From Thomasclavelia ramosa DSM 1402 (lineage in GTDB: Bacteria > Bacillota_I > Bacilli_A > Erysipelotrichales > Coprobacillaceae), in NCBI RefSeq assembly GCF_014131695.1, contig NZ_CP036346.1, positions 868,001-932,000 on the forward strand: a DNA stretch of 64,000 bases, given 5' to 3'. The translations under genes were made by a program, and so were the position numbers. Below the pieces are notes generated by a model. The model saw only the letters and a program-made list of their open reading frames with translations, searched no databases and had not been told where the DNA came from. This document shows, one piece after another, positions 26,632 to 45,754 of the stretch. Numbering within the stretch: the first letter of the stretch is position 1; every line of letters starts with the position of its first letter.

Positions 26632-26658
26632 TTTTCGCAGAACACTATATTCTACGAA
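26632..26658 (+). repeat. Left inverted repeat of the putative invertible promoter (27 bp)
   Basis: It begins TTTTCGCAGAACACTATATT and ends CTACGAA, and is the exact reverse complement of 26989-27015. Perfect identity stops at both ends, so this is a defined recombination site. Confidence 0.9.
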
Positions 26659-26956
26659 AAAATCAGAATCTTAAAAGAATATCAATTTATTATTGCTATC
26701 TCAAAAAGAATAAATATTTCATTTATCGTTAATTTTGGATAAAATGATTAACACAAATAAATTTATTATGATGAAAATAAGAATTGATTAATTTTATCTA
26801 ACGATTTTCAAATATTTTTTCATTATTAATTTGTTTTTTAAACACATCGAACTATAAAAACATTAGTTATTTACTGTTAAAATCATCGGATAAAACAGAC
26901 TATTATCTTAATAGCTCAAATACCTGATAATTACTGTCAATTCGTCGCTTTTTTAT

Positions 26957-26984
26957 TTGAAACAACAACAATTTATGATATAAT
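26957..26984 (+). promoter_or_regulatory. Capsule operon promoter inside the invertible segment
   Basis: TTGAAA (26957-26962), 16-bp spacer, TATAAT (26979-26984). The start of transcription is expected near 26991, in the right inverted repeat. Confidence 0.75.
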
Positions 26985-26988
26985 TCGG

Positions 26989-27015
26989 TTCGTAGAATAT
27001 AGTGTTCTGCGAAAA
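26989..27015 (-). repeat. Right inverted repeat of the putative invertible promoter (27 bp)
   Basis: It begins TTCGTAGAATATAGTG and ends TTCTGCGAAAA. Exact reverse complement of 26632-26658, placed 20 bp upstream of the first capsule gene start. Confidence 0.9.
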
Positions 27016-28026: not shown

Positions 28027-28084
28027 CTGTTACTCAGGTTAACTTGATAACACATTAGTTCTGAACATAAAGTCTAGATTATTT

Positions 28085-28114
28085 GGGGTAAGGGGGAATT
28101 GTATCTTCTACCTC
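28085..28114 (+). promoter_or_regulatory. Leader RNA hairpin, candidate LoaP recognition element
   Basis: GGGGTA-GGGG (28085-28095, one bulged A) pairs with TCTTCTACCTC (28104-28114), several pairs being G-T. It lies between the antiterminator genes and the terminator at 28128, where a LoaP-type loading hairpin would be expected. Function is inferred from position. Confidence 0.4.
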
Positions 28115-28127
28115 ATAAATATGACTA

Positions 28128-28152
28128 AAACAGGCGATGAACCTGTTTTTTT
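28128..28152 (+). terminator. Intrinsic terminator in the capsule leader
   Basis: AAACAGG (28128-28134) pairs with CCTGTTT (28142-28148) and continues as T. It stands inside the operon upstream of all biosynthesis genes, so it must be overridden for capsule expression, in line with the NusG-like proteins. Confidence 0.75.
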
Positions 28153-28176
28153 ATGTTCAAAAAGGAGGTATAAAGA

Positions 28177-28416
28177 GTGACTAAAATATTAGAAAAAATA
28201 GAATCAGAAGTGATATGTATTATTGATGATAAACAATACCAATATACAAATGGTAAAGAGGCTTATCAGCAATTAACAAACAACTACTCTATTACATCTA
28301 TTAAAGCTTTTAATAATCAAATCATCATAAACTTAAATCCAAAAGAGAATAACAAAGAACAAGATTGGCAAGAAGAATATAAGAAACAATTTGGTGTAGA
28401 ACCAAGTTTCTTTTAA
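28177..28416 (+). CDS. Small hypothetical capsule-locus protein
   Basis: 79 residues from GTG 28177 with GGAGG about 9 bases upstream. It is soluble and acidic, ends in QFGVEPSFF, and shows no motif I know. It is the first gene after the leader terminator and is co-transcribed with the polysaccharide genes. Confidence 0.6.
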   Translation: MTKILEKIESEVICIIDDKQYQYTNGKEAYQQLTNNYSITSIKAFNNQIIINLNPKENNKEQDWQEEYKKQFGVEPSFF

Positions 28417-28428
28417 GGGAGAGTGAAA

Positions 28429-28989
28429 ATGAATCTATTAATTATAGGAGCAGGCGGACATGGTAGATGTTGTCTAGATATAGCTAGAGATATGAATATC
28501 TTTGATAAGATATCTTTTCTTGATGATCAAAATATTAATGAAGTTATAAATGATTGTAAAATCATTGGTTCTATTGATGAAATGAGTTCTTATTATCCCG
28601 AGTATACTCATATTCATATTGCTATTGGCAATAACAGTGTTAGAAGCAAACTGCTTTTACAAGCTAAAGAAATAGGCTATTCATTGCCTATACTACAACA
28701 CTCTTCAAGTGTTGTATCAAATTATGCTTCTATTAATGAGGGAACAATTATATTTCCTCATGCAGTAATAGAACCTAATGCAACTATTGGTAAGGGATGT
28801 ATTATTACTGCAAATACAACTATTAATCATGATGCAATGATCAATGATGGCTGTCTAATATATAGCAATTCTATAATTAGACCAATGTCAGTCATAGGAA
28901 GTAACACAAGAATAGGAAGTGGATGTACGATTACTTTTGGTACAGACATAAAAGAAGAAACTGATATTAAAGATGGCTCAATAATTTGA
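28429..28989 (+). CDS. PglD/NeuD-like sugar O/N-acetyltransferase (left-handed beta-helix)
   Basis: 186 residues; AAGGGAG sets the start at ATG 28429 over the GTG at 28423. The N-terminus MNLLIIGAGGHGRCCLDI is the UDP-sugar-binding domain of PglD/NeuD. Hexapeptide repeats follow (PHAVIEPNATIGKGCIITAN, INHDAMINDGCLIY). The C-terminus stops at DIKDGSII, about 20 residues short of the usual ...GNPAKVI end. Typical members acetylate an amino-sugar nucleotide or sialic acid in glycan building. Confidence 0.85.
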   Translation: MNLLIIGAGGHGRCCLDIARDMNIFDKISFLDDQNINEVINDCKIIGSIDEMSSYYPEYTHIHIAIGNNSVRSKLLLQAKEIGYSLPILQHSSSVVSNYASINEGTIIFPHAVIEPNATIGKGCIITANTTINHDAMINDGCLIYSNSIIRPMSVIGSNTRIGSGCTITFGTDIKEETDIKDGSII

Positions 28990-29026
28990 TCATCTTTTTA
29001 ATTGAAATAAAACAGGGAGGGAAAAT

Positions 29027-30835
29027 ATGATTACTGATAAACAAAAAAAATATCTGCCCCTTAAAAGAACAATAGATGTTGTTTTAAGTGGTGGAGCTAT
29101 TGTTGTACTAAGTCCAGTATTAGGATTATTAGCGTTAGCTATAAAACTAGATTCTAAAGGACCAGTACTCTTTAAACAAAAACGTGTGGGCAAAGATAAA
29201 GAACTATTTGAAATCTATAAGTTTAGAACTATGAGAACAGACACACCTAGTGATATGCCTACTCATATGTTAAAGGATCCAGATCAATTTATTACTAAAA
29301 CAGGTAAGTTTTTAAGAAAAACATCTTTAGATGAATTACCACAAATATTCAATATCTTTACAGGAAAGATGTCCATAATAGGTCCTAGACCAGCTTTATG
29401 GAATCAAGATGACTTGATTGCAGAGAGAGATAAATATCATGCGAATGATGTAACTCCAGGATTAACTGGCTGGGCACAAATTAATGGTAGAGATGAATTA
29501 GAAATTGATGTGAAAGCTAAGTTTGATGGTGATTATGTTAATGAAATGGGCTTAAAGATGGATATCAAATGTTTCTTAGCAACTATTGGTTCAGTACTAT
29601 TAGGAGATGGTGTAGTAGAAGGTGGAACTGGTGAATTAGAAGAAACTGTTGATACACAAATAGTAGATCCTGAAAAGATTGAAAAAGAAGCAAAGATTGG
29701 TGCTACAGTAGTTGGTACTGCAGGAGCAGTAGGTCTTACTGGTTTGGGACTTGTTTGTAAACATATTAAGAATAAAGATGGTAAGAAAGATAAGAAATCT
29801 CATAAAGGATTATTATTAGGTTCATTAGCATTCGGATATACAGTATATACTGCATACATTAATGTAAAAAGAAAAGTACAGTTACAAGATAACTTTATTA
29901 ATGAAAAAGAACCTAAATCGACTAAAGAGGATAAACATCTTCTATTAAAGAAAGTTTTAATTACTGGTGCTAATAGTTATATTGGTGAGTCAGTAGAAAA
30001 ATGGTTAAACGACTCAAATAACGAATATGAAATAGATACATTAGACATGTTAGATCCTAATTGGAAAGAGTATGACTTTTCTAAATACGATACTGTATTT
30101 CATGTTGCAGGAATAGCTCATGCTGATGTAGGAAATGTATCTGAAGAAGTAAAACAAAGATACTATAAAGTAAATACAGATTTAACAATAGACTTAGCAA
30201 ATAAGGCAAAAGAAGCTAAAGTAAAACAATTTATCTTTATGTCTTCAATGATTGTCTACAGTGGTTGTGGAACCACACACATTACAAAAGATACTAAACC
30301 TAAAGCAGAAAACTTCTATGGTGACAGTAAATTACAAGCTGATTTAAAACTACAAAAAATGAATGATGAATCTTTTAAGGTTGTAATAGTGAGACCACCA
30401 ATGATTTATGGAAAAGGTTCTAAAGGTAATTATCCACAATTAGCAAAACTAGCAGCAAAGTTACCAGTATTTCCGATTGTCAATAATAAAAGATCAATGT
30501 TACACATTGATAATTTGTGTGAATTCATTAAGTTAATGATTGATAATGAAGAATTCGGTGTATTCTTTCCACAAAATGATGAATATATAAATACATCGGA
30601 CATGGTACAAATGATAGCAAGTATTAAAGGTCACAAAATTATAATGTTACCTGGTATGTCCTTGTTTATCAAACTATTAAAAAAATTGCCTGGTAGAATT
30701 AGTACTATGTCTTCAAAAGCATTTGGCGATTCTTATTACGATATGGAAATGTCTGATATCAATTTAGATTATCAAAGTCAGACTTTTTATAAATCTATTT
30801 TAAATACAGAAGGTGATGAAAATGGAAAAATATAG
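29027..30835 (+). CDS. Phosphoglycosyl transferase fused to NAD-dependent epimerase/dehydratase
   Basis: 602 residues in two enzymes. Residues 1-200 are a monotopic phosphoglycosyl transferase: membrane-entering helix (17-40), EIYKFRTMR (62-70), catalytic D102-E103 in SLDELPQ, SIIGPRP and PGLTGWAQ. It moves a sugar phosphate onto undecaprenyl phosphate, starting the repeat unit. A linker (200-300) has two hydrophobic stretches (GATVVGTAGAVGLTGLGLVC, LLLGSLAFGYTVYTAYI). Residues from about 310 are a short-chain dehydrogenase with VLITGANSYIG, SSMIVYSG and a YxxxK active site (FYGDSKLQ). The fusion suggests the dehydrogenase prepares or modifies the first sugar at the membrane. Confidence 0.9.
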   Translation: MITDKQKKYLPLKRTIDVVLSGGAIVVLSPVLGLLALAIKLDSKGPVLFKQKRVGKDKELFEIYKFRTMRTDTPSDMPTHMLKDPDQFITKTGKFLRKTSLDELPQIFNIFTGKMSIIGPRPALWNQDDLIAERDKYHANDVTPGLTGWAQINGRDELEIDVKAKFDGDYVNEMGLKMDIKCFLATIGSVLLGDGVVEGGTGELEETVDTQIVDPEKIEKEAKIGATVVGTAGAVGLTGLGLVCKHIKNKDGKKDKKSHKGLLLGSLAFGYTVYTAYINVKRKVQLQDNFINEKEPKSTKEDKHLLLKKVLITGANSYIGESVEKWLNDSNNEYEIDTLDMLDPNWKEYDFSKYDTVFHVAGIAHADVGNVSEEVKQRYYKVNTDLTIDLANKAKEAKVKQFIFMSSMIVYSGCGTTHITKDTKPKAENFYGDSKLQADLKLQKMNDESFKVVIVRPPMIYGKGSKGNYPQLAKLAAKLPVFPIVNNKRSMLHIDNLCEFIKLMIDNEEFGVFFPQNDEYINTSDMVQMIASIKGHKIIMLPGMSLFIKLLKKLPGRISTMSSKAFGDSYYDMEMSDINLDYQSQTFYKSILNTEGDENGKI

Positions 30836-31649
30836 TGTTTTAATGTCCGTATATATAAAAGAAAAACCAGAGTTTTTAGAAAAAAGTATAGATAGTATGA
30901 TTAACCAAACGGTTAAACCAGATGAAATAGTTATTGTTAAAGATGGACCTTTGACTAGTGATTTGGATTTGGTAATTAAGTTTTATAATGAAAAATATCC
31001 TAACATTTTTAAAATATTAGCATTGGAAAAAAATGGTGGATTAGGAAATGCATTAAATGAGGGGTTGAAAATTTGTAAAAATAACCTTGTTGCAAGAATG
31101 GATTCTGATGATATTTCCTTTCAAAATAGATGTGAATTACAATTAAAAAGATTCGAAAAAAAGGAAGACTTAGCTATATTAGGTGGTCAAATAATTGAGT
31201 TTAGTAAGACAGTTACTAATACAGGTAAAATGAGAGTAGTTCCATGTTCAAATGATGAAATTACGAAATTTAGTCATAAAAGAAGTCCATTTAATCATCC
31301 TACTGTAATGTATAAAAAAGATATAATTATGACATTTGGGGGCTATCCAACGGTTAAAAGAAAAGAGGATCTTGGATTATTTGTTCGATTGGCAAATTCT
31401 AATTTATTATGTGAAAATTTAAATGAATGTTTGTTATATTATCGGACAAATAATGATAATTTAAAACGAAGAAAATCATTTGTTAATTGTAAAGAGTATA
31501 TTGATATTATGCATAGATTTTATAAAGAAGGAATTATTAACATTTTTGATATGACTTATATTGTGTTAGGACAACTATCTTTATATTGCTTTCCGTCGAC
31601 AATAGTTAAATTATTAAGTGAAAAAATATTAAGAAAAAGTAAACATTAA
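30822..31649 (+). CDS. Family 2 glycosyltransferase
   Basis: 275 residues; AGAAGG spaced 8 bases before ATG 30822 selects this start. The GT-A fold shows VLMSVYIKEKPEFLEKSIDS, IVIVKDGP, GLGNALNEGL and the metal-binding RMDSDD. It adds a sugar to the lipid-linked repeat unit on the cytoplasmic face. It overlaps the end of the fusion gene by 14 bases. From here to 36280 the DNA is distinctly more AT-rich, typical of variable glycan cassettes. Donor and acceptor unknown. Confidence 0.9.
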   Translation: MEKYSVLMSVYIKEKPEFLEKSIDSMINQTVKPDEIVIVKDGPLTSDLDLVIKFYNEKYPNIFKILALEKNGGLGNALNEGLKICKNNLVARMDSDDISFQNRCELQLKRFEKKEDLAILGGQIIEFSKTVTNTGKMRVVPCSNDEITKFSHKRSPFNHPTVMYKKDIIMTFGGYPTVKRKEDLGLFVRLANSNLLCENLNECLLYYRTNNDNLKRRKSFVNCKEYIDIMHRFYKEGIINIFDMTYIVLGQLSLYCFPSTIVKLLSEKILRKSKH

Positions 31650-31689
31650 ATACTTGTGTTTTAAAAAAATATGAAAGGATGTGAATTTT

Positions 31690-32637
31690 TTGAACAAGCT
31701 AATAAGCGTGATAATACCTATCTATAATTCTGAGTTACATCTTAGGCATTGCCTAGACAGTATTTTAAATCAAATTTACACAAATATAGAGATAATTTTA
31801 GTTAATGATGGTTCGACAGACAATTCATTAAGTATTTGTGAAGAGTATAAACATCAAGATGAAAGATTTAAACTGATTAATATTAATAATTCTGGTGCAA
31901 GTCATGCACGAAATATTGGATTATCTAAGGCTAAAGGACAATATGTTTCATTTATCGATTCTGATGATATGATTGATAAAAATATGTTTCATGATATGTT
32001 AGGGTTAATTGAAATACATAAAGCGGACATGGCGGAATGTGAAATAAAATATGTTCGAAATCATAAAACCAATAAAATTAATAATATTGAAGAAATTAAA
32101 TTAATGAACAAAGATGATATGTTGAATAGATTCTTTCGAACTTCAGGTGAAAAAGATACTCATACATTGTGTAACAAACTAATAAATATTGATATATTGG
32201 ATGATTTCAAATTAATTGAAGGATATATGAATGAAGATGTTAAAGGTGTTTATGACATTATAAAAAAATGCAATAAATGTATATATACTTCTAATAAATA
32301 CTATTTATATTATAGAAATAGTAGTGGAGTAACTAATAAAAAATTTAATAAAAAACATTTAGATTTACTATATATGTGGGATTTAGTTGTAAAAGAAGTA
32401 GCAATTGATTTTCCAACTTATTATCAATACGCCATTATAAATCGTAAAAGAGCATATTTTACATTATATTTAAAAATGATAAGAAATGGATACAATAAAA
32501 ACGATATATACATGTGTAAGACAAAAATTAAATTAGAAAAAAAGGTTTTGGACTATTATCCTGAGTTAATAAAGTGGAAAATAGCATTTAGTAGAAAAAT
32601 TTTATTGTACTTAATATATATTTTTAGAAAGGAATAG
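31690..32637 (+). CDS. Family 2 glycosyltransferase
   Basis: About 315 residues. AAAGGAT at 31674-31680 fits TTG 31690 better than GTG 31681, which it abuts. The GT2 core reads SVIIPIYNSELHLRHCLDS, ILVNDGSTDNS and the metal motif FIDSDDMID. The C-terminal half is basic and helix-rich, as usual in CPS-type transferases. Specificity unknown. Confidence 0.9.
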   Translation: MNKLISVIIPIYNSELHLRHCLDSILNQIYTNIEIILVNDGSTDNSLSICEEYKHQDERFKLININNSGASHARNIGLSKAKGQYVSFIDSDDMIDKNMFHDMLGLIEIHKADMAECEIKYVRNHKTNKINNIEEIKLMNKDDMLNRFFRTSGEKDTHTLCNKLINIDILDDFKLIEGYMNEDVKGVYDIIKKCNKCIYTSNKYYLYYRNSSGVTNKKFNKKHLDLLYMWDLVVKEVAIDFPTYYQYAIINRKRAYFTLYLKMIRNGYNKNDIYMCKTKIKLEKKVLDYYPELIKWKIAFSRKILLYLIYIFRKE

Positions 32638-32641
32638 TTTA

Positions 32642-33877
32642 ATGTTAAAAATATCGAGAAGCCAGATTAAAAAAATGATATTATATTTGATAATAGTAAT
32701 CTTTGTGTTTTGCTCTGATGATTCACTAATTTTTGGGACAAACCAAAATACAGTATTTGTTAATATTAAGTACTTTTTATTTGCGATAGTATATATTTTT
32801 TTAATAATAAAAAATTATAGTTTGAAAAATACTTATAATAAAAAAGATTTCATTTACTTGATTACATTTGTACTAGTAATAATATGTAGTATGTTGTTTA
32901 ATGCAGATTTTCGTTTTGGATATATTCAAAAAGTGTTAGTAATAGTAGCAAGTTATATTTTTTGTAAGAGATATTCTTTGCAAACATTTTCTGCTATATT
33001 TAATAAAATTATGTCATTTGTTACTGTTTTTTCGCTTGTTTATGAGGCGGCGTATATTCTATTGCCCCAATTATCTAAAATATTTATATTAACAAATATT
33101 GGGGGACAAAGATTCTATACTTGGCTTGTTTGTAGTTTGCCTATAGAACCAGGTGGAATAATTAGAAATTTTGGATTTGCTAGAGAACCTGGAGTATTTG
33201 CAATTTACATTATTATTGCTTTGATATTTGAAACTTTTATAAATGAAAATAGTTCGGTGAAAAGAATAATTATATTTACTATTACATTAATAACTACATT
33301 TTCTACAACTGGATTTATTGCATTTGGATTCTATCTTATTGCTATCCTTTTTAATAGTAGCAATACAAAAAGCAAAGCGGGTCTTAATCAAAATATCAAA
33401 ATAATGTTATTATTGGTAATATTTGTAGTATTCTTTGTATCATTTAATAATGACTTTTTATCAGGAGGTGCATATGGTGCTATATTTGGTAAAATGAATT
33501 CAGATAATATATCTTTCAATTCTAGAGTTGCTTCATTAATTAGTAATACTAATATAGGATGTAAAAATATACTGGTTGGTAAAGGATTATCTTATGTAGA
33601 ATTAAATTTTTCTGTGATAACAAAAGAATTATTGGGAATTAGTTTAATTCATAATGCAAATACCTGGTTTATTCATTTTGCACAATTTGGGTTAATTTTA
33701 TTTTTGACACAATTTGTCCTACTGTATCGAACAATGAAAAACCTTTTTAAATCTAAACTTTTAGTAATTCTATGTATGATAATATATATTGTTGTTTGTA
33801 TGGGACAGTCAATGTGTATGTCACCTATTTTTTATATAATGTTATTTTTAAGAAATGAGAGGCTTGGATATGAGTAA
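32642..33877 (+). CDS. O-antigen/capsule polymerase (Wzy-like)
   Basis: 411 residues, almost entirely hydrophobic, with ten or more predicted spans and one larger external loop around 160-185 holding GGIIRNFGFAREPGVFA; an Arg-rich loop of this type is a mark of Wzy polymerases. A second loop near 305-330 has NSRVASL. It would polymerise repeat units on the outer face of the membrane. Family identity rests on topology, the loop and gene context, since Wzy sequences diverge widely. Confidence 0.8.
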   Translation: MLKISRSQIKKMILYLIIVIFVFCSDDSLIFGTNQNTVFVNIKYFLFAIVYIFLIIKNYSLKNTYNKKDFIYLITFVLVIICSMLFNADFRFGYIQKVLVIVASYIFCKRYSLQTFSAIFNKIMSFVTVFSLVYEAAYILLPQLSKIFILTNIGGQRFYTWLVCSLPIEPGGIIRNFGFAREPGVFAIYIIIALIFETFINENSSVKRIIIFTITLITTFSTTGFIAFGFYLIAILFNSSNTKSKAGLNQNIKIMLLLVIFVVFFVSFNNDFLSGGAYGAIFGKMNSDNISFNSRVASLISNTNIGCKNILVGKGLSYVELNFSVITKELLGISLIHNANTWFIHFAQFGLILFLTQFVLLYRTMKNLFKSKLLVILCMIIYIVVCMGQSMCMSPIFYIMLFLRNERLGYE

Positions 33878-35093
33878 AACTAATTATATTATGGTGTCGT
33901 CAACGTGTAATGATGATATGTATAAATATGTTTCATCAATAAAAACTAAAGATAAAGTTAACCCGTCTCAGAAATATTATAAATTATTAATGGAAGGTAT
34001 GGCTTCAGCAGATGGATGTACTGTAACTTGCGTATCAATAAGAAGTGTTAATCCTGCCACTTCTTTTATAAATATGATTGAAGAGGATAATTACTTTGAA
34101 AATGGTGTAAGTTATAAGTATATTAAAATTAGAAATAAGAGAATAATAGTTTACGTTGATATGGTATTTAATACTTATAAAACTATCAATAAGTGCATAA
34201 AAAGTTCAAATGATAGAAAGGACACAATTATTTTTACAGATGTTCTTTCAATTTGTGGGGCTTTTTCTTCGTTGCTGATATGCAAAATAAAAAAAATTAA
34301 GTGTTGTGCTATAGTCACTGATTTACCCAATCTTGTTACAGCAATCAATAAAACAGCTAAAGTGTCTTTGTTTCGAAAATTCAAGGACTCTTTTTTAAAT
34401 TTTTTAATAAAACGATTTGATTCGTATTGTTTTTTGACTGAATCCATGAATGAAATAAATGCATCAAATAAGCCATATATAGTAATAGAAGGTATTGCTA
34501 CTGATACTGATGGCTTGTTAAATAATTCATGTTTTAACGAAAAAAAATCCAATGAATTTGTTGTGCTCTATGCAGGAGGATTATATGAAAAATTTGGACT
34601 CAAAAATCTTATAGATGCAATTGACTTTACAAAAAACAAAAATATTATATTACATGTTTATGGAGAAGGTACTATAGTTCCATATATAAAAGAGAAAATA
34701 GAATGTAATCATAGAATAGTATATGGAGGAATATTACCTCCAAATATAATATTTGAATTAGAAAAAAAAGCATCTCTTCTTATAAACTGTAGACCAACTT
34801 CTGATTTGTTTACTAAATATTCATTTCCCTCAAAAACCATTGAGTATTTATCTAGTGGAACACCTGTGTTAACCACTAAATTGGAAGGAATACCTAAAGA
34901 ATATATGGAGCACTTATTCTTGATTGAAGATGAATCACCAAAAGGAATTGCTAAAACACTTGATAATATTAGTTCAATGCAAATGAATGCATTACAATCT
35001 AAAGGGAACTTAGGGAAAAAATACGTTTTAGAGAATAAAAATAAGGAAATTCAAGGTGAAAAACTTATAAATTTTGTGAGGAATCTAAAATGA
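33870..35093 (+). CDS. Family 4-like glycosyltransferase
   Basis: 407 residues; ATG 33870 (MSKTNYIM) has AGAGG at correct spacing inside the overlap with the polymerase gene, so the ATG at 33855 is rejected. GT-B fold: an N-terminal domain to about 200, then VVLYAGGLYEKFGLKNLID, HVYGEGTIVPYI and the donor-binding end KYSFPSKTIEYLSSGTPVL with its EX7E-like region. Probably adds one residue of the repeat unit. Specificity unknown. Confidence 0.85.
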   Translation: MSKTNYIMVSSTCNDDMYKYVSSIKTKDKVNPSQKYYKLLMEGMASADGCTVTCVSIRSVNPATSFINMIEEDNYFENGVSYKYIKIRNKRIIVYVDMVFNTYKTINKCIKSSNDRKDTIIFTDVLSICGAFSSLLICKIKKIKCCAIVTDLPNLVTAINKTAKVSLFRKFKDSFLNFLIKRFDSYCFLTESMNEINASNKPYIVIEGIATDTDGLLNNSCFNEKKSNEFVVLYAGGLYEKFGLKNLIDAIDFTKNKNIILHVYGEGTIVPYIKEKIECNHRIVYGGILPPNIIFELEKKASLLINCRPTSDLFTKYSFPSKTIEYLSSGTPVLTTKLEGIPKEYMEHLFLIEDESPKGIAKTLDNISSMQMNALQSKGNLGKKYVLENKNKEIQGEKLINFVRNLK

Positions 35094-36280
35094 AAATATT
35101 GCAAATAAATCTAGGTAATTATGGTAGTACTGGTAAGATAATGATGGGAATTGAAAAATCATCAAATAATAACAATACTTTTTGTATGGTATATCCAAAT
35201 ACCAAAAATAATGTTGAATACTCAGGTGACAAAATTTTGATATCAGGAATTATCAGTAGAAAAGTAAACCATTTTTTAGAAAAATGTACTGGCTTTCAAG
35301 GCTGTTTTTCAATATTAAAAACTCATACACTAATTTCCAATATAAAAAAATATGATCCTGACATTATTCATTTACATAATATTCATGGTATAGAAATTAA
35401 CTATCCATTATTATTTAAATATATAAAAAAGAATAAGATAAAGATTATTTGGACACTCCACGATTGTTGGAGTTTTACAGGTCAATGTCCACATTTTACT
35501 ATCATTAAATGTGATAAATGGAAGACAGGGTGTTTCAAATGTCCACAGTATAAAGAATATCCAGAAGCTTTTGTTGATAGAACAAAAATGATGTGGAAAC
35601 TAAAAAGAAAATGGTTTAACAACGTTGAAAACATGACTATTGTCACACCTTCAATTTGGCTATCAAATTTGGTTAAAGAATCTTATCTTAAAAACTATCC
35701 TGTACAGGTTATCAATAATGGAATAGATTTGAGTATATTTAAACCTAGAAAAAGTGAATTCAAAACTATAATGGGTTTAGAAGGAAAAAAAATTATATTA
35801 GGTGTATCCTTTACTTGGGGAAAGAAAAAGGGATTAGACGTTTTTTATGATTTATCGAAAATAATTAATGACGATTATGTTATTGTACTAGTTGGTTTGA
35901 ACAATGTGGATGAATTGAAAGATTATGAAAATATCTATGCAATTCCAAGAACAAATAACCAAATTGAACTTGCTGAAATTTATACATCCGCTGATGTTTT
36001 TGTTAATCCTACAAGAGAAGATAATTTTCCAACGGTAAACATAGAGTCTCTTGCATGTGGAACCCCAGTTGTCACTTTCAATACAGGAGGAAGTCCTGAA
36101 ATTATTGATTCTAGTTGCGGATTGGTAGTAGAATGTGATGATTTAGAAAAGCTAAAAAATACCATTGTGGATATTACTTCTTTAAAAAAAACACTGGAGA
36201 ATTCTTGCGTATCTAGAGCGCACTGTTTTAATATGTATGATAAATTTAAAGATTATTTAAAATTGTACGATACTGTATGA
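35090..36280 (+). CDS. Family 4 glycosyltransferase (WcaL/WcaC-like)
   Basis: 396 residues, ATG overlapping the previous stop (ATGA). The N-terminus MKILQINLGNYGSTGKIMMG is like colanic-acid-type GT4 enzymes, with IIHLHNIHG, WTLHDCWSFTGQCPHF and a cysteine-containing loop (CDKWKTGCFKCPQY). The C-terminal donor domain has NPTREDNFPTVNIESLACG. It adds a sugar to the repeat unit. It ends the first AT-rich cassette; a 70-bp noncoding gap precedes capE. Confidence 0.88.
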   Translation: MKILQINLGNYGSTGKIMMGIEKSSNNNNTFCMVYPNTKNNVEYSGDKILISGIISRKVNHFLEKCTGFQGCFSILKTHTLISNIKKYDPDIIHLHNIHGIEINYPLLFKYIKKNKIKIIWTLHDCWSFTGQCPHFTIIKCDKWKTGCFKCPQYKEYPEAFVDRTKMMWKLKRKWFNNVENMTIVTPSIWLSNLVKESYLKNYPVQVINNGIDLSIFKPRKSEFKTIMGLEGKKIILGVSFTWGKKKGLDVFYDLSKIINDDYVIVLVGLNNVDELKDYENIYAIPRTNNQIELAEIYTSADVFVNPTREDNFPTVNIESLACGTPVVTFNTGGSPEIIDSSCGLVVECDDLEKLKNTIVDITSLKKTLENSCVSRAHCFNMYDKFKDYLKLYDTV

Positions 36281-36353
36281 TGTTAAAAATCAACTTATAT
36301 AACTTTATTTTAAAATAATATATTAAATATAAAATATTTAGGAGGAAAAAAGA

Positions 36354-37394
36354 ATGATATCTTTTAAAGACAAAACATTATTAATTACTGGAGGAACTGG
36401 TAGCTTTGGAAATGCGGTGCTAAACCGCTTTTAAAATACAGATATAAAAGAAATTAGAGTATTTAGTAGAGATGAATTAAAACAAGATAATATGAGACAT
36501 GAATATCAGGCTAAATACCCTGATGTTTTTAATAAGTTAAAGTTTTATATCGGGGATGTAAGAGATATACAAAGTATTAAGAATGCTATGCATGGTGTAG
36601 ACTATGTCTATCATGCAGCCGCATTAAAACAAGTACCTAGTTGTGAATTTTTTCCAATAGAAGCAGTTAAAACTAATGTATTAGGTACTGAAAATGTGTT
36701 AACAGCTGCTATTGAAGCAGGAGTTAAAAGAGTAGTATGTTTATCAACAGATAAAGCTGCTTATCCTGTAAATGCTATGGGTACTAGTAAAGCTATGATG
36801 GAAAAAGTAATTGTAGCTAAATCTAGAACAGTAGATCCAGAAAAAACAAGTATTATGTGTACAAGATATGGTAATGTATTAGCTTCAAGAGGTTCAGTTG
36901 TACCTCTTTTTATTAACCAAATAAAAGCTGGTAATGATTTAACTGTAACTAGTCCAGATATGACAAGATTTGTTATGACATTAGAAGAAGCAGTTGATTT
37001 AGTATTATTTGCTTTTGAAAATGGTCAATCAGGAGATATTTTCGTACAAAAAGCACCTGCTTGTACAATTGGTGTACTCACTGAAGCAGTAAAAAGACTA
37101 ATGAAAGCTGATAATGAAGTAAAAGTAATTGGTATCAGACATGGCGAAAAAATGTATGAAACATTATTAACTGATGAAGAATGTGCTAATGCGATTGATT
37201 TAGGTGGTTTCTATAGAGTACCTGCGGATAAGCGTGATCTTAATTATGACAAATATTTTAATGAAGGTATTGAGGAGTCTGCACTTACTCAATTCAATTC
37301 AAATAATACTCACTTAATGGATGTAGAAGCAGTAATGAACAAACTAATGGAAGTACCACTAGTTAAAGAAGAAATCCTTAATTCAACTAAATAG
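36354..37394 (+). pseudogene. capE: capE/fnlA (UDP-GlcNAc 4,6-dehydratase/5-epimerase) with an in-frame stop
   Basis: GGAGG precedes ATG 36354, and the frame reads ISFKDKTLLITGGTGSFGNA then VLNRF, TAA (36432-36434), NTDIKEIRVFSRDELKQD without any shift, so one base change (Leu codon to TAA) breaks it. The rest is intact to 37394: YHAAALKQVPSCEFFP, LSTDKAAYPVNAMG, RYGNVLASRGSV. The next usable start (ATG 36492) would lose the Rossmann nucleotide site. The enzyme starts UDP-L-FucNAc synthesis together with CapF and CapG. A sequencing error, readthrough or true inactivation are all possible. Confidence 0.88.
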
Positions 37395-37408
37395 GGAGGA
37401 TTAAATAA

Positions 37409-38803
37409 TTGAATAGAAATAAATATTTACTCAAGAATACTTTTTTATATTCCATATCAACTTTTAGTACAAAAATAATTACTTTTTTTATGGTAAGTTT
37501 TTATACTGCAGTACTTAGTGCAGAAACATATGGAAAAATTGATGTTATATTTGCCACTATTAATTTATTGATTCCTATAGTGGCATTATCTATTAATAAT
37601 TCAATTTTAAGATTTTCACTTGACAAAAATATAAATAAAAACAATGTGTTTTTTATAGGCTTTTTTGTTACATCTTGTAGCTCTATACTTATCATTATTG
37701 TTTCGCTTATAACCAATATCTTTATTAATAATCCCTATTTTATATTATCAGCACTTCTTTTGATTTTTGAAATATATTATCTACTATTATCTGAGTTTAT
37801 TAGAGGATTGGACAGAAATGGAATATATGTTCTTTTTAATGTATTATTGGTAATAATAATCTCATTGTTAAATATATTCTTTTTAGGATATATGAAGCTA
37901 CAAATATTTGGATATTTATACGCATACCTAATTTCGTATGGATTATGTTCTATATTTTTAATAATGATCATAAAGCCAGTAAAATTGTTAAGGAATATAG
38001 ATAAATCTTCAATCGTAGATACTTTTAAAATTATGTTGAACTATTGTGTTTATCTAATACCTAATTCTATATTTTGGTGGATTACCACTAGTTCGGATAA
38101 ATATATAATAGTATTTATAATTGGTAATGCATTTAATGGGGTATATTCAGTTGCAAATAAGATACCAACTATAGTAATTTATACTTTTCAAATATTCATT
38201 CAGGCATGGCAATTATCTGCTATCAAAGAAAAAGGTGCAGAAAGTGAACAACAATTTGTCAACCAGATATTTAAAATATTATTTGTTTGTATTTCATTAG
38301 CAATATCTTTCATATTACTGATTCTAAAGCCATTTACCCTTTTTTATGTGGGCAAATCATATTATGAAGCTTGGGAATCAGGAGCTATATTAGTGTTTAC
38401 TGCAATGTTTAATATTCTCTCATCATTTGTTGGGATTCGTTATGTAGTGGAAAAGGATAATAAAATGAATATGTATACTACATTACTTGGGGCTGTTATA
38501 AATATTATTTTAAATATAATTCTAATACCACATTATAAATTAATAGGAGCTGCGATTGCAACTTTGATTAGTTACATATTTGTTTTTATGGTAAGAATGT
38601 ATGATACAAAAAAATATTTAAAAATAAATATGTTGAAATTTAATTATTTAATAATATTTATTTTGGTTTTTCAAGTTTTAACATTATTTATATTCAATGA
38701 CTATTGGATGATATGTGGGATTATTTCATTTTTTATAATCTCATTAATAAGTATACTGTTCATTAAAGATGAAGTTAAAAAAATTATAAGGAGTAGAAGA
38801 TGA
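37409..38803 (+). CDS. Polysaccharide flippase (Wzx-like, MOP superfamily)
   Basis: 464 residues from TTG 37409 with GGAGG 9 bases upstream. About 12-14 membrane spans; the N-terminus FLYSISTFSTKIITFFMVSF and YTAVLSAETYGKIDVIF are typical of PST/MATE-like flippases, and the central NYCVYLIPNSIFWWITTSSD is their second-half start. It flips the lipid-linked repeat unit to the outer face for the polymerase. It starts the second AT-rich cassette. Confidence 0.92.
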   Translation: MNRNKYLLKNTFLYSISTFSTKIITFFMVSFYTAVLSAETYGKIDVIFATINLLIPIVALSINNSILRFSLDKNINKNNVFFIGFFVTSCSSILIIIVSLITNIFINNPYFILSALLLIFEIYYLLLSEFIRGLDRNGIYVLFNVLLVIIISLLNIFFLGYMKLQIFGYLYAYLISYGLCSIFLIMIIKPVKLLRNIDKSSIVDTFKIMLNYCVYLIPNSIFWWITTSSDKYIIVFIIGNAFNGVYSVANKIPTIVIYTFQIFIQAWQLSAIKEKGAESEQQFVNQIFKILFVCISLAISFILLILKPFTLFYVGKSYYEAWESGAILVFTAMFNILSSFVGIRYVVEKDNKMNMYTTLLGAVINIILNIILIPHYKLIGAAIATLISYIFVFMVRMYDTKKYLKINMLKFNYLIIFILVFQVLTLFIFNDYWMICGIISFFIISLISILFIKDEVKKIIRSRR

Positions 38804-39948
38804 AGAAACTAATTCGAAAGATAATTAAAAATATATATATTAAACGTGATTTTTTACATATCCAACAATCTATTAATATGCGAATCAAATATTTCTTGAG
38901 AAACATATACAATTCTTGTTGGAATAAAGATAACAAACTTAATTATCCAAAAACATTGCAATTTCCGATTACAAATAAATGCAATTTAGATTGTATTATG
39001 TGTAATATTCATGGCAATGATATAAAAAATGAAATGAATATAGATGATATTAAAAGAGTATTAAGTAATTCAATATTTTGCAAAGTAGAATCAGTCGGAA
39101 TTAATGGGGGTGAACCATTTATTTTAAAAGATATAACTAGTATTATTGAAACTATTCTTGATACACTTCCCGCTTTACGTAATCTCTATATAATTAGTAA
39201 CGGAACTATTCCAAATTGTCCTGATAAAATAAAAGAAATATATAACTTATGTAAAAAACATAATGTTAAATTTACTTTGAGCTTTTCTATTGATGGATTT
39301 GATGAAATGCACAATGAAATGCGTGGAAGACCAGGTACCTTTCAAAAGTTAATACATACTTTAGATATAATAAAGTCAAATATAAATCTATATTGTGATA
39401 GCATAAATTTCATTTGCACATTAACAAAAAAAAATATATATAGTGTGAATGAATTAGAAGCTTTTTCTCAAAAATACGGTATTCAAATCACATATAATGT
39501 AGCTACTGAACACGAACGATTAAAGAATGATATTAAATATCAGTATTATTCATTATTTACTGATAAAGAAGCGAAAATGCTTGCTAGGGAATTTCTATAC
39601 TCAAAATTTAAGCAAACTCATTCCAAAACATATTACGGCCTTTTTAGGTATTTAAAAGATGATGAACCCAAAAGAATATCAAATTGTCAATTTTTACATA
39701 ATGGTATAACACTTACGCCAACGGGTGATATCTGTTATTGTGCTACACATAGTAAAGCATTAGTAAATGTTAAAAATAGTAATGTAGATATAAAGAAAAT
39801 ATATTTTGAAAATAAATTATATAATGATGAGATAAAAAATACTTATTGTGATAAGTGTTCACATTATATGGGTGCATTGACAAATGAAGGTTACAAAGAC
39901 TATATGGATGAGATATTAAAATTCTCAAAGAGACCTATGAAAGGATAG
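38800..39948 (+). CDS. Radical SAM protein with SPASM-like C-terminus in the capsule locus
   Basis: 382 residues; ATG overlaps the flippase stop (ATGA). The radical SAM motif is CNLDCIMC in FPITNKCNLDCIMCNIHG (about residue 62), followed by the GGE motif GINGGEPFI. The C-terminal region has CQFLHNGITLTPTGDICYC and NTYCDKCSHY, cysteines for an auxiliary cluster as in SPASM/twitch proteins. No peptide precursor gene is near. A role in modifying a sugar or a lipid-linked intermediate is inferred from context and could be quite different. Confidence 0.87.
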   Translation: MKKLIRKIIKNIYIKRDFLHIQQSINMRIKYFLRNIYNSCWNKDNKLNYPKTLQFPITNKCNLDCIMCNIHGNDIKNEMNIDDIKRVLSNSIFCKVESVGINGGEPFILKDITSIIETILDTLPALRNLYIISNGTIPNCPDKIKEIYNLCKKHNVKFTLSFSIDGFDEMHNEMRGRPGTFQKLIHTLDIIKSNINLYCDSINFICTLTKKNIYSVNELEAFSQKYGIQITYNVATEHERLKNDIKYQYYSLFTDKEAKMLAREFLYSKFKQTHSKTYYGLFRYLKDDEPKRISNCQFLHNGITLTPTGDICYCATHSKALVNVKNSNVDIKKIYFENKLYNDEIKNTYCDKCSHYMGALTNEGYKDYMDEILKFSKRPMKG

Positions 39949-39952
39949 AACT

Positions 39953-41083
39953 ATGAATATTTGTATTTTAGGATGGTATGGTACTGAAACTTTAGGAGAC
40001 AGAGCTATTATTGAAGGTATAATTAAAATCTTTGATAGTATTGAAAAAAATGATATTAGTATTGGGTCATTGTATCCGTTTTTTACTGAAAGAACATTAA
40101 TTGAAGAACAAGAAGCATTAAATATTATGGGTATAACTAGTAATATTTATTGTTTTGATGTTTTGAATAGCAAAACCTTAAAAAAACAAATTGAAACATC
40201 TGATTTAGTTATTATGGGTGGAGGACCGTTAATGGATCTTTCTGAACTTGATATTATTGACAAATCTTTTCAATATGCAAAAAAAAGAAAAATTCATACA
40301 GGTATTATTGGTTGTGGAATTGGCCCTTTAAATAAACCAGAGTTTAGAAGAAGTGTATATAATATACTTATAAATAGTGATATTTCTATTTTTAGGGATA
40401 CTAATTCACTGAGTGAAGCTCAAATATTGAATAATCAATTTGGAAATAGAATTGATGAGACTACTTTATATGCTTCTAACGATCCTGCAATTATACCAAT
40501 TGGATTTTTTAAATGTGAGAATAACGTTAAAGATAGATTGGTAGTTAATTTTAGAGACTTAGGATTTCAAACAGATAACAGTTTATTAACAATAGTTGAT
40601 AATAAATTGATTTCTTTATTAAAAAATATGTCTAATCAGTTTAAAGAGATAGTATTATTGCCAAATCATATTTTTTCTATAGGAGGAGATGATAGATTCT
40701 ATTTTTCTAAACTTAAACAAGAATTAATGGATTATGAAAATATTGTTGTAATACATAAACCTTTATCCTTATTCCAAACATTTGAAATAATTAAGAATTC
40801 GAAAGCTGCTATTGGAATGAGGTATCATTCGATTGTTTTCCAAAGTTATTTGAATGGAAATAATTATATTTTAGATTATACAGAAAAGAAAAAGGGAAAA
40901 ATTATATCTTTTTTAAATGATAATGATCCAAATGAATTTTTTGCAGATAGATATTATAGCTTAATAGATTTGAATAAAGGAATTGAGTTTAAAATTACGA
41001 AAGATATTTTTGAGTATGATAATAAAATATTTGAAAAAACATTAGAATTTTACGTAAGTATTATAAAAAGAAATATATATTAA
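39953..41083 (+). CDS. Polysaccharide pyruvyl transferase family protein
   Basis: 376 residues. PF04230-like pattern: NICILGWYGTETLGDRAII, DLVIMGGGPLMDLSEL, GIIGCGIGPLN, a C-terminal KAAIGMRYHSIVFQSYLNGN. These enzymes (CsaB, WcaK, CpsF types) move pyruvate from PEP onto a sugar as a ketal, giving the polymer a negative charge and sometimes an anchor site for SLH proteins. The gene follows the radical SAM gene by 4 bases and closes the second AT-rich cassette. Confidence 0.9.
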   Translation: MNICILGWYGTETLGDRAIIEGIIKIFDSIEKNDISIGSLYPFFTERTLIEEQEALNIMGITSNIYCFDVLNSKTLKKQIETSDLVIMGGGPLMDLSELDIIDKSFQYAKKRKIHTGIIGCGIGPLNKPEFRRSVYNILINSDISIFRDTNSLSEAQILNNQFGNRIDETTLYASNDPAIIPIGFFKCENNVKDRLVVNFRDLGFQTDNSLLTIVDNKLISLLKNMSNQFKEIVLLPNHIFSIGGDDRFYFSKLKQELMDYENIVVIHKPLSLFQTFEIIKNSKAAIGMRYHSIVFQSYLNGNNYILDYTEKKKGKIISFLNDNDPNEFFADRYYSLIDLNKGIEFKITKDIFEYDNKIFEKTLEFYVSIIKRNIY

Positions 41084-41146
41084 TTTTTAAAAATTACAAA
41101 TATTAAAAGTTTATTTTAATATTTTATTTGTAAAGAAAGAGGAAAA

Positions 41147-42343
41147 ATGAAAATATTAGTTACTGGATCAAAAGGTTTTGTTGGAAAAAATCTTGTAGCG
41201 TCATTAAAGAATATAAAAGATGGTAAGGAGCGTACGAAATCTTTTTTTGTTGAAGAAATCTATGAATACGATATTGATACTGATTCATCATTATTAGATA
41301 CATACTGCAAAGATTGTGACTTTGTCTTCAATCTTGCAGGAGTAAATAGACCTAAAGATAATGATGAATTCATGCAAAGTAACTTTGGTTTTGCTTCTAC
41401 ATTATTAGATACATTAAAGAAACATAATAACACTTGCCCTATTATGTTATCTTCTTCAATTCAAGCTACATTAATTGGAAGATATGGAACAAGTGATTAT
41501 GGAAAGAGTAAATTAGCAGGAGAAGAATTATTCTTTGATTACTCAAAAGAAACAGGTGCTAAAGTACTAGTTTATAGATTTCCTAATCTGTTTGGTAAAT
41601 GGTGTAGACCTAATTACAATAGTGCTGTTGCTACATTTTGTAACAACATTGCTAATGATTTAGATATTCAAGTTAATGATAGAAGTACTGAATTAGAGTT
41701 ATTATATATTGATGATTTAGTTGAAGAAATGCTAAGTGCATTAACTAATGATGAACATCATTGTAACTATGATGGTTTAAATGTTGTTGATAACAATACT
41801 GGTAAGTATTGTTATGTTCCAACAACACATAAAGCTACATTAGGTGAGATTGTTGATTTATTAGAATCTTTTAAAAATCAACCCAATACATTAGTAATGC
41901 CAGAAATACCAAATAATAGTTTTGCTAAAAAACTATATTCAACTTATCTGTCATATTTATCTAAAGAAAAAGCTATCTTTGATTTAAAAATGAATAAAGA
42001 TGATAGAGGAAGTTTTACTGAATTATTAAAAACGGAAAACTGCGGACAGTTCTCTGTTAATATATCAAAACCAGGAATTACTAAAGGACAACATTGGCAT
42101 CATAGTAAATGGGAATTCTTTATTGTTGTATCAGGTAAAGCTCTAATACAAGAAAGAAGAATAGATAGTAATGAAGTAATAGAGTTTGAAGTATCAGGAG
42201 ATAACATTCAAGCTATTCATATGTTACCAGGATATACTCATAACATTATTAATCTATCAGATACCCAAGATTTAGTTACTGTTATGTGGGCTAATGAAGC
42301 CTTTGATCCAAATCATCCAGATACATTCTTCGAGGAGGTATAA
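41147..42343 (+). CDS. capF: UDP-2-acetamido-2,6-dideoxyhexulose epimerase/reductase (CapF-like)
   Basis: 398 residues in two domains. Residues 1-260 are a short-chain dehydrogenase (MKILVTGSKGFVGKNL, NLAGVNRP, active-site YGKSK in TSDYGKSKLAGEE). From about 275 there is a cupin with metal-binding histidines (ITKGQHWHHSKWEFF) that performs the C3 epimerisation. In S. aureus, CapF takes the CapE product to UDP-L-6-deoxy-talNAc. It has a good ribosome site (AAAGAGG) and leads the group capF-capG-glmM. With capE broken it would lack its substrate unless another gene supplies it. Confidence 0.92.
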   Translation: MKILVTGSKGFVGKNLVASLKNIKDGKERTKSFFVEEIYEYDIDTDSSLLDTYCKDCDFVFNLAGVNRPKDNDEFMQSNFGFASTLLDTLKKHNNTCPIMLSSSIQATLIGRYGTSDYGKSKLAGEELFFDYSKETGAKVLVYRFPNLFGKWCRPNYNSAVATFCNNIANDLDIQVNDRSTELELLYIDDLVEEMLSALTNDEHHCNYDGLNVVDNNTGKYCYVPTTHKATLGEIVDLLESFKNQPNTLVMPEIPNNSFAKKLYSTYLSYLSKEKAIFDLKMNKDDRGSFTELLKTENCGQFSVNISKPGITKGQHWHHSKWEFFIVVSGKALIQERRIDSNEVIEFEVSGDNIQAIHMLPGYTHNIINLSDTQDLVTVMWANEAFDPNHPDTFFEEV

Positions 42344-42348
42344 GTAGA

Positions 42349-43533
42349 ATGGAAATTAAAACAGATTATAGTGATGTAAAGTTCCAAGATAATGGAAAAC
42401 TTAAATTATTGATCATTGTAGGTACAAGACCTGAAATCATTCGTCTTGCCGCAACAATCAATAAATGTAGACAATATTTTGATTGTGTGTTAGCACACAC
42501 TGGTCAAAACTATGACTACAACTTAAATGGAGTATTTTTCCATGACTTAAAATTAAAAGATCCAGAAGTATATATGGATGCAGTAGGTGATGATTTAGGT
42601 GCTACAGTTGGTAATATCATTAACTGTTCATATAAACTAATGAATCAAATCAAACCTGATGCATTATTAATTTTAGGAGATACTAATAGTTGCTTAAGTG
42701 CTATTAGTGCTAAAAGATTACATATTCCTATCTTCCATATGGAAGCAGGTAATAGATGTAAAGATGAATGCTTACCTGAAGAAACTAATAGAAGAATCGT
42801 AGATATTATTTCTGATGTAAACTTAGCGTATAGTGAACATGCAAGAAGATATCTAGCAGAATGCGGTCTTCCTAAAGAAAGAACATATGTAACAGGTTCA
42901 CCTATGGCAGAAGTATTACATAATAACTTTGAAGATATTAAAGCTAGTAACATTTTAGAAAAACTAAACCTTAAACCAAAAGGATATATGTTATTGAGTG
43001 CCCATAGAGAAGAAAATATTGATACAGAAAAGAACTTCTTATCACTATTTACCGCTATTAATAAACTAGCAGAAAAATATGATATGCCTATTCTATATTC
43101 GTGTCATCCTAGATCTAGAAAAAGATTAGAATCCACAGGATTCAAATTAGATTCTAGAGTATTTATGCACGAACCATTAGGATTCCATGATTATAATAAT
43201 CTGCAAATGAATGCATTTTGTGTAGTATCTGATAGTGGAACACTTCCAGAAGAATCGTCATTTTTTACATCAGTAGGGAATCCATTCCCTGCAGTATGTA
43301 TTAGAACATCTACAGAAAGACCAGAAGCATTAGATAAAGCTTGTTTTATCTTAGCAGGTATTGATGAAAAATCTTTATTGCAATCAGTAACCACAGCTAT
43401 AGATATGGTAAATAATAATGATAATGGTATTCCAGTACCAAATTATACAGATGAAATAGTATCTACTAAAGTAGTTAAGATTATTCAATCTTATACCGGT
43501 GTAGTTGATAAGATGGTTTGGAGAAAAAATTAA
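42349..43533 (+). CDS. capG: UDP-N-acetylhexosamine 2-epimerase (CapG/WecB family)
   Basis: 394 residues with AGGAGG upstream. The motifs are [58 protein letters not shown] and [10 protein letters not shown], all of the hydrolysing/non-hydrolysing 2-epimerase fold. Placed after CapF it should make UDP-L-FucNAc, the last step of that pathway. A UDP-ManNAc-forming WecB role is the alternative, but the neighbours favour CapG. Confidence 0.92.
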
Positions 43534-43547
43534 CAGGAGAGATTATA

Positions 43548-44891
43548 ATGACAAAATACTTTGGAACAGATGGCTTCAGAGGAGAGGCTAATATAGATTT
43601 AACTGTAGAACATGCTTATAAAGTAGGAAGATACCTAGGATGATATTTCTCTCAAAATCATAAAGCAAGAGTTGTAATAGGAAAAGATACAAGAAGAAGT
43701 TCATATATGTTTGAATATGCTTTAGTATCTGGTTTAACGGCATCAGGAGCAGATGCCTTTTTAATGCATGTCACAAAAACTCCATCAGTTGCTTACATCG
43801 TAAGAACTGATGAATTTGATTGTGGAATCATGATTAGTGCATCTCATAATCCTTTCTATGATAATGGAATTAAAATCTTAGATAATAAAGGTCATAAGAT
43901 GAATAATGAAGTAGAAAAAAAGATCGAAGATTATATTGATGGTCTTATTGATGAATTACCACTTGCTAGAAAAGATACAATTGGATGTGCAAGTGATTAT
44001 TCAGTAAGGAGAAATAGATATATTGGTTATCTTATGTTTATTCCAACACGTGCATTTAAAAATATACGTGTTGGTTTAGATTGTACTAATGGAGCTAGCG
44101 GTGCTATTGAAAAAAGTGTCTTTGATTCTTTAGGCGTAACGACGTATGTTATTAATAATGATCCTGATGGAATTAATATTAATACAAATTGTGGTTCAAC
44201 ACATATTGATGTTTTATCACAATTTGTAAAAGAAAAAGGTTTAGATATTGGCTTTGCTTATGATGGTGATGCTGATAGATGTATTGTTGTTGATGAATTT
44301 GGTAGAGATGTTAATGGAGATTTAATCTTATATGTATGTGATAAATACTTAAAAGATCATTATGAATTAAGTAACAATACCATTGTTACATCAATCATGA
44401 GTAATCTTGGTTTATATAAAGCATTAGATAAAGCAAATATTGATTATGTAAAAACTGCATTAGGGGATAAATATGTTAATGAAAACATGGTAGAAAATAA
44501 TCATTGTCTAGGTGGAGAAGAATCAGGACATATTATCTTCTCTAAACATGCGACAACAGGAGATGGTATCTTAACGTCTTTAAGAATCATGGAAGCAATC
44601 ATTGAAAGTAAACAAACTTTAGCTCAATTAACAGAACCAGTAACTATCTATCCTCAACTTACAAAGAATGTAAGAGTTGAAAACAAAAAAGCTGCGAGAG
44701 AAGATGAAGCAGTTGTTAAAGCTATTAAAGAAGTAGAGGAACTTTTACGTGAAGAAGGAAGAGTCATTGTAAGAGAATCGGGAACAGAACTAGTTATTAG
44801 AGTCATGGTTGAAGCATCAACAGATGAACTGTGTAATCAATATGTGAATCATATTGTATCAGTTATGACTGAAAGGGGATTAGTGTTATAA
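43548..44891 (+). pseudogene. glmM: Phosphoglucosamine/phosphohexose mutase (GlmM-like) with in-frame TGA
   Basis: ATG 43548 follows CAGGAGAG and reads [33 protein letters not shown] (43641-43643), YFSQNHKARVVIGKDTRRSS in one frame. The stop falls where relatives often have Trp, so TGG to TGA is the likely change. The rest is complete, with the phosphoserine loop MISASHNPFYDNG, the metal loop AYDGDADR and RESGTE. The enzyme would make GlcN-1-phosphate for UDP-GlcNAc, feeding the amino-sugar pathway here. A separate housekeeping glmM is expected elsewhere. The next start (ATG 43707) would drop the first ~50 residues. Confidence 0.87.
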
Positions 44892-44926
44892 AACACGTTT
44901 AAAATAATTTAATCGGAGGTGAAACA

Positions 44927-45754
44927 ATGCAATTAAATACAACATTATACCAAAGTATTCTAAACTCGTTATGTAACGAATTAAAATTAAATGAACAGTT
45001 TATTTTAAATACTATTGATTCTGGTTATTATATGTTTCAACAAGATCATCAAATACTATATATTGATGATTTATATGAATGTTACTTCAATATTGTGAAG
45101 AGAAATTTTAAAGGAAATATTGATAAAGTGCCTTTTTATAGTATATCTAGAAGATTAAAAGATACTGATAATGATGGATTAAGCCTGTTAGAATTACTAA
45201 CAGAAGAAAATAGTTTTTCAAACTATTTAAAGGAATATGGTTTAACATTTAAATTTAATGATGAAATTGAGATGTATGTTAATGGTAACAAGGTTGATAT
45301 TCCTGATGAAGGCAAATATAAACCCTATCTAAAAAATAGATTCTCATACGATTACTCATTTAAAGGTTATGCTTTTGATGATCAATTAATGAATAATGAG
45401 ATATTAGAAAGAGTTAAGTATGGTCCAGAGTTCTTTGGACATCTTTTTAATTACGTAGATAACGATGATGAGATCATTGATAATTATCTAGAACAAAGTA
45501 AATTGTACAAATTTGAGTACTTAGTACCTATTGAAGATATTTACTTTGAAAATTATGAGGAACTAACTAATGAAGAAAAACAATATCACATCTTAGCGAT
45601 GATGATGTTAAGATTGTATTTCTATAAATATGATAAAGATTTTGTAGAAACTGATGAAATGAATCCACTAATGGTAGTGGCTAATTATAAGTCTCTTTCT
45701 AGCAAATATCTTGTAAATAAAACTGAGTTAGATGATGAGGCACTAGGCTATTAG
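44927..45754 (+). CDS. Hypothetical protein ending the capsule operon
   Basis: 275 residues with a strong ribosome site (CGGAGGTG). Soluble, acidic and Tyr/Asp-rich; an EF-hand-like DTDNDGLSLLELL near residue 83 resembles a calcium loop but may be chance. No family recognised. It is the last gene before a terminator and shares the capsule operon's spacing and direction. Confidence 0.6.
   Translation: MQLNTTLYQSILNSLCNELKLNEQFILNTIDSGYYMFQQDHQILYIDDLYECYFNIVKRNFKGNIDKVPFYSISRRLKDTDNDGLSLLELLTEENSFSNYLKEYGLTFKFNDEIEMYVNGNKVDIPDEGKYKPYLKNRFSYDYSFKGYAFDDQLMNNEILERVKYGPEFFGHLFNYVDNDDEIIDNYLEQSKLYKFEYLVPIEDIYFENYEELTNEEKQYHILAMMMLRLYFYKYDKDFVETDEMNPLMVVANYKSLSSKYLVNKTELDDEALGY

Follow-up and report, generated by a model that had tools for sequence, protein, structure and literature searches.

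Evidence for a probable phase-variable invertible promoter ahead of a LoaP-headed capsule-type gene cluster in Thomasclavelia ramosa

Most of what is known of capsule phase variation through sets of invertible promoters comes from Bacteroidales. In the H segment of Salmonella, the invertible DNA itself holds its own recombinase gene together with an outward promoter. In Bacteroides fragilis, promoters between inverted repeats lie upstream of several polysaccharide loci per genome, each with a NusG paralogue (UpxY) in first place, and the recombinase Mpi, which is of the serine type, acts on many regions (PMC5903667). The tyrosine recombinase RecV of Clostridioides difficile, a Gram-positive gut bacterium, inverts several regulatory segments in trans, serving cwpV, flagella and signalling genes (PMC5903667, PMC7446863). 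In Eggerthella lenta, also Gram-positive and from the gut, capsule clusters are repositioned relative to loaP by megabase-scale inversions at a 16-bp repeat; the authors named no recombinase and present arguments against a mere exchange of promoters (PMC13174815). A single inversion signature turned up among the Bacilli samples surveyed in 2018, and the median number of invertons in Bacillus-like Firmicutes was zero in a survey from 2025 (surveys: PMC5903667; PMC11892184). As these surveys found almost no inversions in Bacilli, the dense system found here in the family of Thomasclavelia was unexpected. We found no description of it in the open-access literature, subscription papers and supplementary tables being outside the scope.

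The window analysed, i.e. the whole stretch of 64,000 nucleotides (G000:C1:868001-932000), belongs to the complete 3.25-Mb genome of Thomasclavelia ramosa DSM 1402 and contains a segment that is very probably the phase-variable invertible promoter of a capsule-type cluster (Table 1). A sequence-only reading of the window had already proposed such a promoter; the proposal holds in that the geometry recurs in relatives in both orientations, with inversions at the sites, but flipping within the species is unproven. It had also equated the layout with that of Bacteroides. Here the promoter between repeats and the leading NusG paralogue agree, as does the presence of several loci per genome (six in the related genome G012), whereas the sites, together with the enzymes of the sister elements, belong to the tyrosine type, every locus has a spacer of its own, and the NusG paralogues, which stand in tandem, are LoaP-like and not UpxY. 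That the two kinds of switch work alike is therefore a strong claim, while membership in the Bacteroides group of switches does not hold, since the enzyme class differs and UpxY is not matched. With RecV the system shares a tyrosine recombinase that probably acts in trans and the multiple segments, but RecV serves no LoaP-headed capsule locus. The 1.1-kb sister elements resemble the H segment in holding a recombinase gene and an outward promoter; Hin, however, is a serine recombinase, and the window element is without a recombinase gene.

Table 1. Positions of the switch, of the genes that it faces and of the second capsule element (window coordinates unless a contig is given)
Feature	Position	Strand	Details
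Hairpin terminator, adjoining outer side of left site	26587..26623		Fold and T-tract on both strands; activity inferred
Left recombination site	26632..26658	+	Core 26634-26658, TTCGCAGAA-CACTATA-TTCTACGAA
Invertible segment, 330 nt, non-coding	26659..26988		Arms and ORF check
Outward promoter, extended -10 TG	26957..26984	+	Same geometry at one end in 26/29 sister elements
Right recombination site	26989..27015	+	Core 26989-27013, TTCGTAGAA-TATAGTG-TTCTGCGAA
LoaP-like NusG paralogue 1, 163 aa	27036..27527	+	PF02357 3.4e-8; NF033641 antiterm_LoaP 96.7 bits
LoaP-like NusG paralogue 2, 165 aa	27529..28026	+	PF02357 1e-13; NF033641 92.9 bits
Leader	28027..28160	+	GGGGTA-AGGGG type motif, terminator 28127-28149; target role inferred
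Polysaccharide gene cluster, ~17 kb	28177..45754	+	Single transcript inferred
Second invertible capsule element (L133:8695-10120)	G000:C1:2466694-2468119		1.4 kb, 377-aa tyrosine recombinase inside

The inverted repeat was recovered as described by the sequence-only reading, with arms that are 100% complementary over 27 nt, and its judgement that chance is an unlikely source proved sound: the expected number of perfect pairs within 1 kb per 64 kb is about 2e-7 with the composition of the window and 5e-6 with the local composition. No second perfect 27-nt pair with arms 50-1500 nt apart was found in the window, and the DNA between the arms, likewise claimed to be noncoding, lacks any ORF of 90 aa or more. 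The promoter consists of TTGAAA (26957-26962) and TATAAT (26979-26984) separated by 16 nt, ends 4 nt short of the right arm as had been stated, and ranks first among 14 matches in the 2.1-kb region (11/12). Next to the left site, the hairpin folds with -13.3 kcal/mol on the plus strand and -21.4 kcal/mol on the minus strand (z -6.8); judged from its fold and T-tracts, it would end the transcripts of the upstream transaldolase as well as those of the flipped promoter. Each arm is itself a dyad of the form 9-7-9 with a 25-nt core. A 7-nt centre between half sites of 9 nt is the core layout of tyrosine-recombinase sites, e.g. lambda att, and a dyad of this odd length is the kind of site that such enzymes use. 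Elsewhere in the window genome, no further copy of the arm comes to two mismatches or fewer from full symmetry, and weaker matches do not rise above the control. Beyond the promoter, the inside of the segment has no meaningful similarity to other segments, and an Rfam scan gave nothing above threshold.

Searching for the site TTCGYAGAA-N7-TTCTRCGAA (at most one mismatch, centre left free) gave matches in 12 of the 43 family genomes, and none for the reversed-pattern control. A slightly wider pattern without mismatches was matched in 11/43 family genomes versus 1/273 elsewhere in the order, its control giving single matches in five genomes. Twelve sites in G012, a genome of the same genus as G057 (matched to Candidatus Stoquefichus massiliensis AP9), make up six adjacent inverted pairs, and their 7-nt centres are exact reverse complements within each pair (6/6) while all six are mutually different. 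Extension to all loci with LoaP-like genes in related genomes (among those matched to named records are G001, Thomasclavelia cocleata, and G004, T. saccharogumia) raised the number to about 30 dyad pairs, some of them with decayed half sites. Since an exact reverse-complementary centre was among the search criteria in this step, only the count of the G012 type is unbiased. Nearly all pairs immediately precede LoaP-like genes, mostly a tandem of two, at the head of polysaccharide loci. Promoter-only elements of 180-400 nt comprise that of the window, five in G012 and one each in G057, G008, G054 and G282; other elements hold a tyrosine recombinase of about 310 aa (~1.1 kb, with a 4.5-kb member on G012:C5 that includes further genes) or of about 380 aa (~1.4 kb). 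Single sites occur in ten viral contigs, and no viral contig with the window flank was found.

Several individual loci deserve mention. The six LoaP-headed loci of G012 (L041-L046) each have their own dyad pair and spacer, all six being OFF in the assembly, and the interiors of two of these segments share 89% identity. In G003 (L048:9264-10646), a dyad-flanked recombinase adjoins a 1087-aa protein with CarboxypepD_reg domains in the absence of a LoaP-like gene, so that elements of this kind may act on genes other than capsule genes as well. About 4 kb separate the LoaP-like genes from the recombinase segment in G004 (L144:5362-11865), where the contig ends at a site; this layout suggests that the sites also mediated a rearrangement on a larger scale. 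Lastly, a 605-aa protein with a ToxN-like domain and a weak HipA_C-like region is encoded beside the capsule switch of G282 (L177:7431-9248).

Orientation could be compared by means of the extended -10 element (TGn followed by TATAAT, at most one mismatch), which ends 2-4 nt from one arm, and never from both, in 26 of the 29 elements, against a background of 0.0016 per position. In four of these the promoter faces the operon (ON), namely in the window, as the sequence-only reading had it, and in G010 (L047), G002 (L140) and G282 (L177), the last counting as ON because its LoaP-like genes lie left of the element on the minus strand. The remaining 22 promoters face away (OFF). Orthologues are found among the OFF cases, which are hence not independent, and as assemblies show a single state, the counts are uninformative on switching rates. 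The locus most closely related to that of the window lies in G012 (82% identity in LoaP1). It is OFF, and the two share DNA homology that begins exactly at the right arm, at 26989. Two pairs of homologous loci have flank and segment aligned in opposite senses with breaks at the dyads, i.e. L133 of the window genome (dyad centre TACTTTA, adjoining two LoaP-like genes) against L147 of G007, and L140 of G002 against L141 of G049. Both inversions are between species, and the elements therefore invert at their sites over evolutionary time. Divergence of orientation is present between related genomes, both as promoters on either side and as inversion between homologous loci.

Downstream of the right site, the claim of a NusG-like gene in first position was borne out and extended, as the second gene matches the same domain. 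NF033641 is the best family for both proteins, although neither reaches its cut-off of 125, and they are therefore called LoaP-like; the cut-off of the UpxY family NF033644 is likewise not reached (32.3 and 57.4 bits against 100). Antitermination at this locus is inferred from what is known of LoaP in general (PMC12691694). The leader behind the two genes has a conserved motif of the GGGGTAGGGG type, a long hairpin and a T-run, found at the same place in 13 related loci, but it has no Rfam match, and support from an RNAalifold consensus fold or covariation is weak. It may be the antitermination target of the LoaP-like proteins, a role that is inferred and an activity that is unproven. The polysaccharide operon into which the promoter had been said to fire is indeed there, with its status as one transcript inferred. 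It encodes e.g. a PglD-type acetyltransferase, a sugar-phosphate transferase, GT2 and GT4 glycosyltransferases, a flippase-like protein, a pyruvyl transferase, epimerases and PGM/PMM, and a capsule as its product is inferred from this gene content. Probably the operon is under the switch indirectly, by way of the antiterminators, which makes two locks in series. Elsewhere in the window (13987-19206), a 1739-aa protein combines peptidase M60 (enhancin-like), fibronectin type III and F5/8 type C domains.

A search of the genome for an invertase, as the sequence-only reading had advised, returned four serine recombinases of about 200 aa and nine tyrosine-recombinase matches, of which two are fragments of a single gene. 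The recombinases inside the sister elements best match a 309-aa protein with a PF00589 domain (L018, G000:C1:1918660-1919589; 39-59% identity), except for L048 and the 380-aa class, which are closer to the 377-aa enzyme from the second capsule locus. In the 309-aa enzyme, the catalytic residues R144, K190, H255, R258, H281 and Y291 are invariant (23/23). It groups with the enzymes of G012 and G057 (support 100/99), the only other genomes in the set to combine TTCG-arm promoter-only elements with such an enzyme. The sequences of arms and enzymes vary together (Mantel r 0.50, p 0.0002, near-copies removed), shared descent contributing to the signal. We consider it probable that this enzyme is the invertase of the window switch, acting in trans, on the indirect grounds of phylogeny and arm co-variation and without biochemistry. 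Against the assignment stand the lack of linkage to the switch and the shared descent left in the co-variation test. The gene lies alone among housekeeping genes about 1 Mb away, with no dyad sites around it other than a degenerate trace at its 3' end, and no homologue was found in the site-carrying draft assemblies G019 and G282.

With four serine and several tyrosine recombinases in the genome and a switch that lacks its own enzyme, the segment could instead be inverted by a serine recombinase of the Hin/Mpi type or by the 377-aa tyrosine recombinase. A serine invertase cuts at a central 2-nt step, for which an odd-length dyad with a 7-nt centre is unfit. The 377-aa class pairs with different arms, GTCGTAGAG, and the sister elements with TTCG arms hold relatives of the 309-aa enzyme, so that another enzyme, though not ruled out, seems rather unlikely. 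More doubtful still is a former switch now locked ON through loss or inactivity of its invertase. The internal enzyme of the sister elements is indeed absent here, and the candidate is distant and has no sites of its own. The arms, however, are still perfectly identical over 27 nt, unlike the decayed half sites in relatives, and an intact homologue with all catalytic residues remains in the genome. A segment that does not invert at all, being a fixed promoter with two dyad operators or the remnant of a small transposable element, would fit arms that are each a dyad, one of them overlapping the expected transcription start, but is scarcely credible, as neither operators nor transposon ends need a pair-private, reverse-complementary centre, and the opposite orientations of promoter or recombinase segments between homologous loci would go unexplained.

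In the mechanism that we propose for the invertible promoter, a tyrosine recombinase in trans, most likely the 309-aa enzyme, would pair the two inverted dyad sites, and strand exchange within the shared 7-nt spacer TATAGTG would invert the 330-nt segment. When ON, the promoter would fire through the right site into the two LoaP-like antiterminator genes, whose products would let RNA polymerase pass the terminator behind their own genes, so that the polysaccharide genes are transcribed. When OFF, the flipped promoter would fire into the terminator outside the left site. At the level of sequence, the sites, the promoter, the terminators, the gene order, the promoter on either side in relatives and the inversion between loci are established; that the window locus flips in living cells is inferred, its orientation being known from one assembly only. 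We also lean, by a small margin of confidence, towards a wider model in which several capsule switches all depend on a single master tyrosine recombinase for flipping. The 7-nt spacers would serve as private addresses, each locus recombining only with itself, and promoter-only elements would be self-inverting recombinase cassettes that have lost the gene and depend on a trans-acting relative.

These findings suggest that systems for capsule switching also exist outside the Bacteroides group. A gut family of the Erysipelotrichales appears to have a version of its own, in which a single genome can hold as many as six candidate switchable loci and the enzyme class is a different one. Gut metagenomes that already exist could be scored for the elements listed here. 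Furthermore, a simple sequence rule in the spacer would prevent recombination between loci, and this rule is directly testable.
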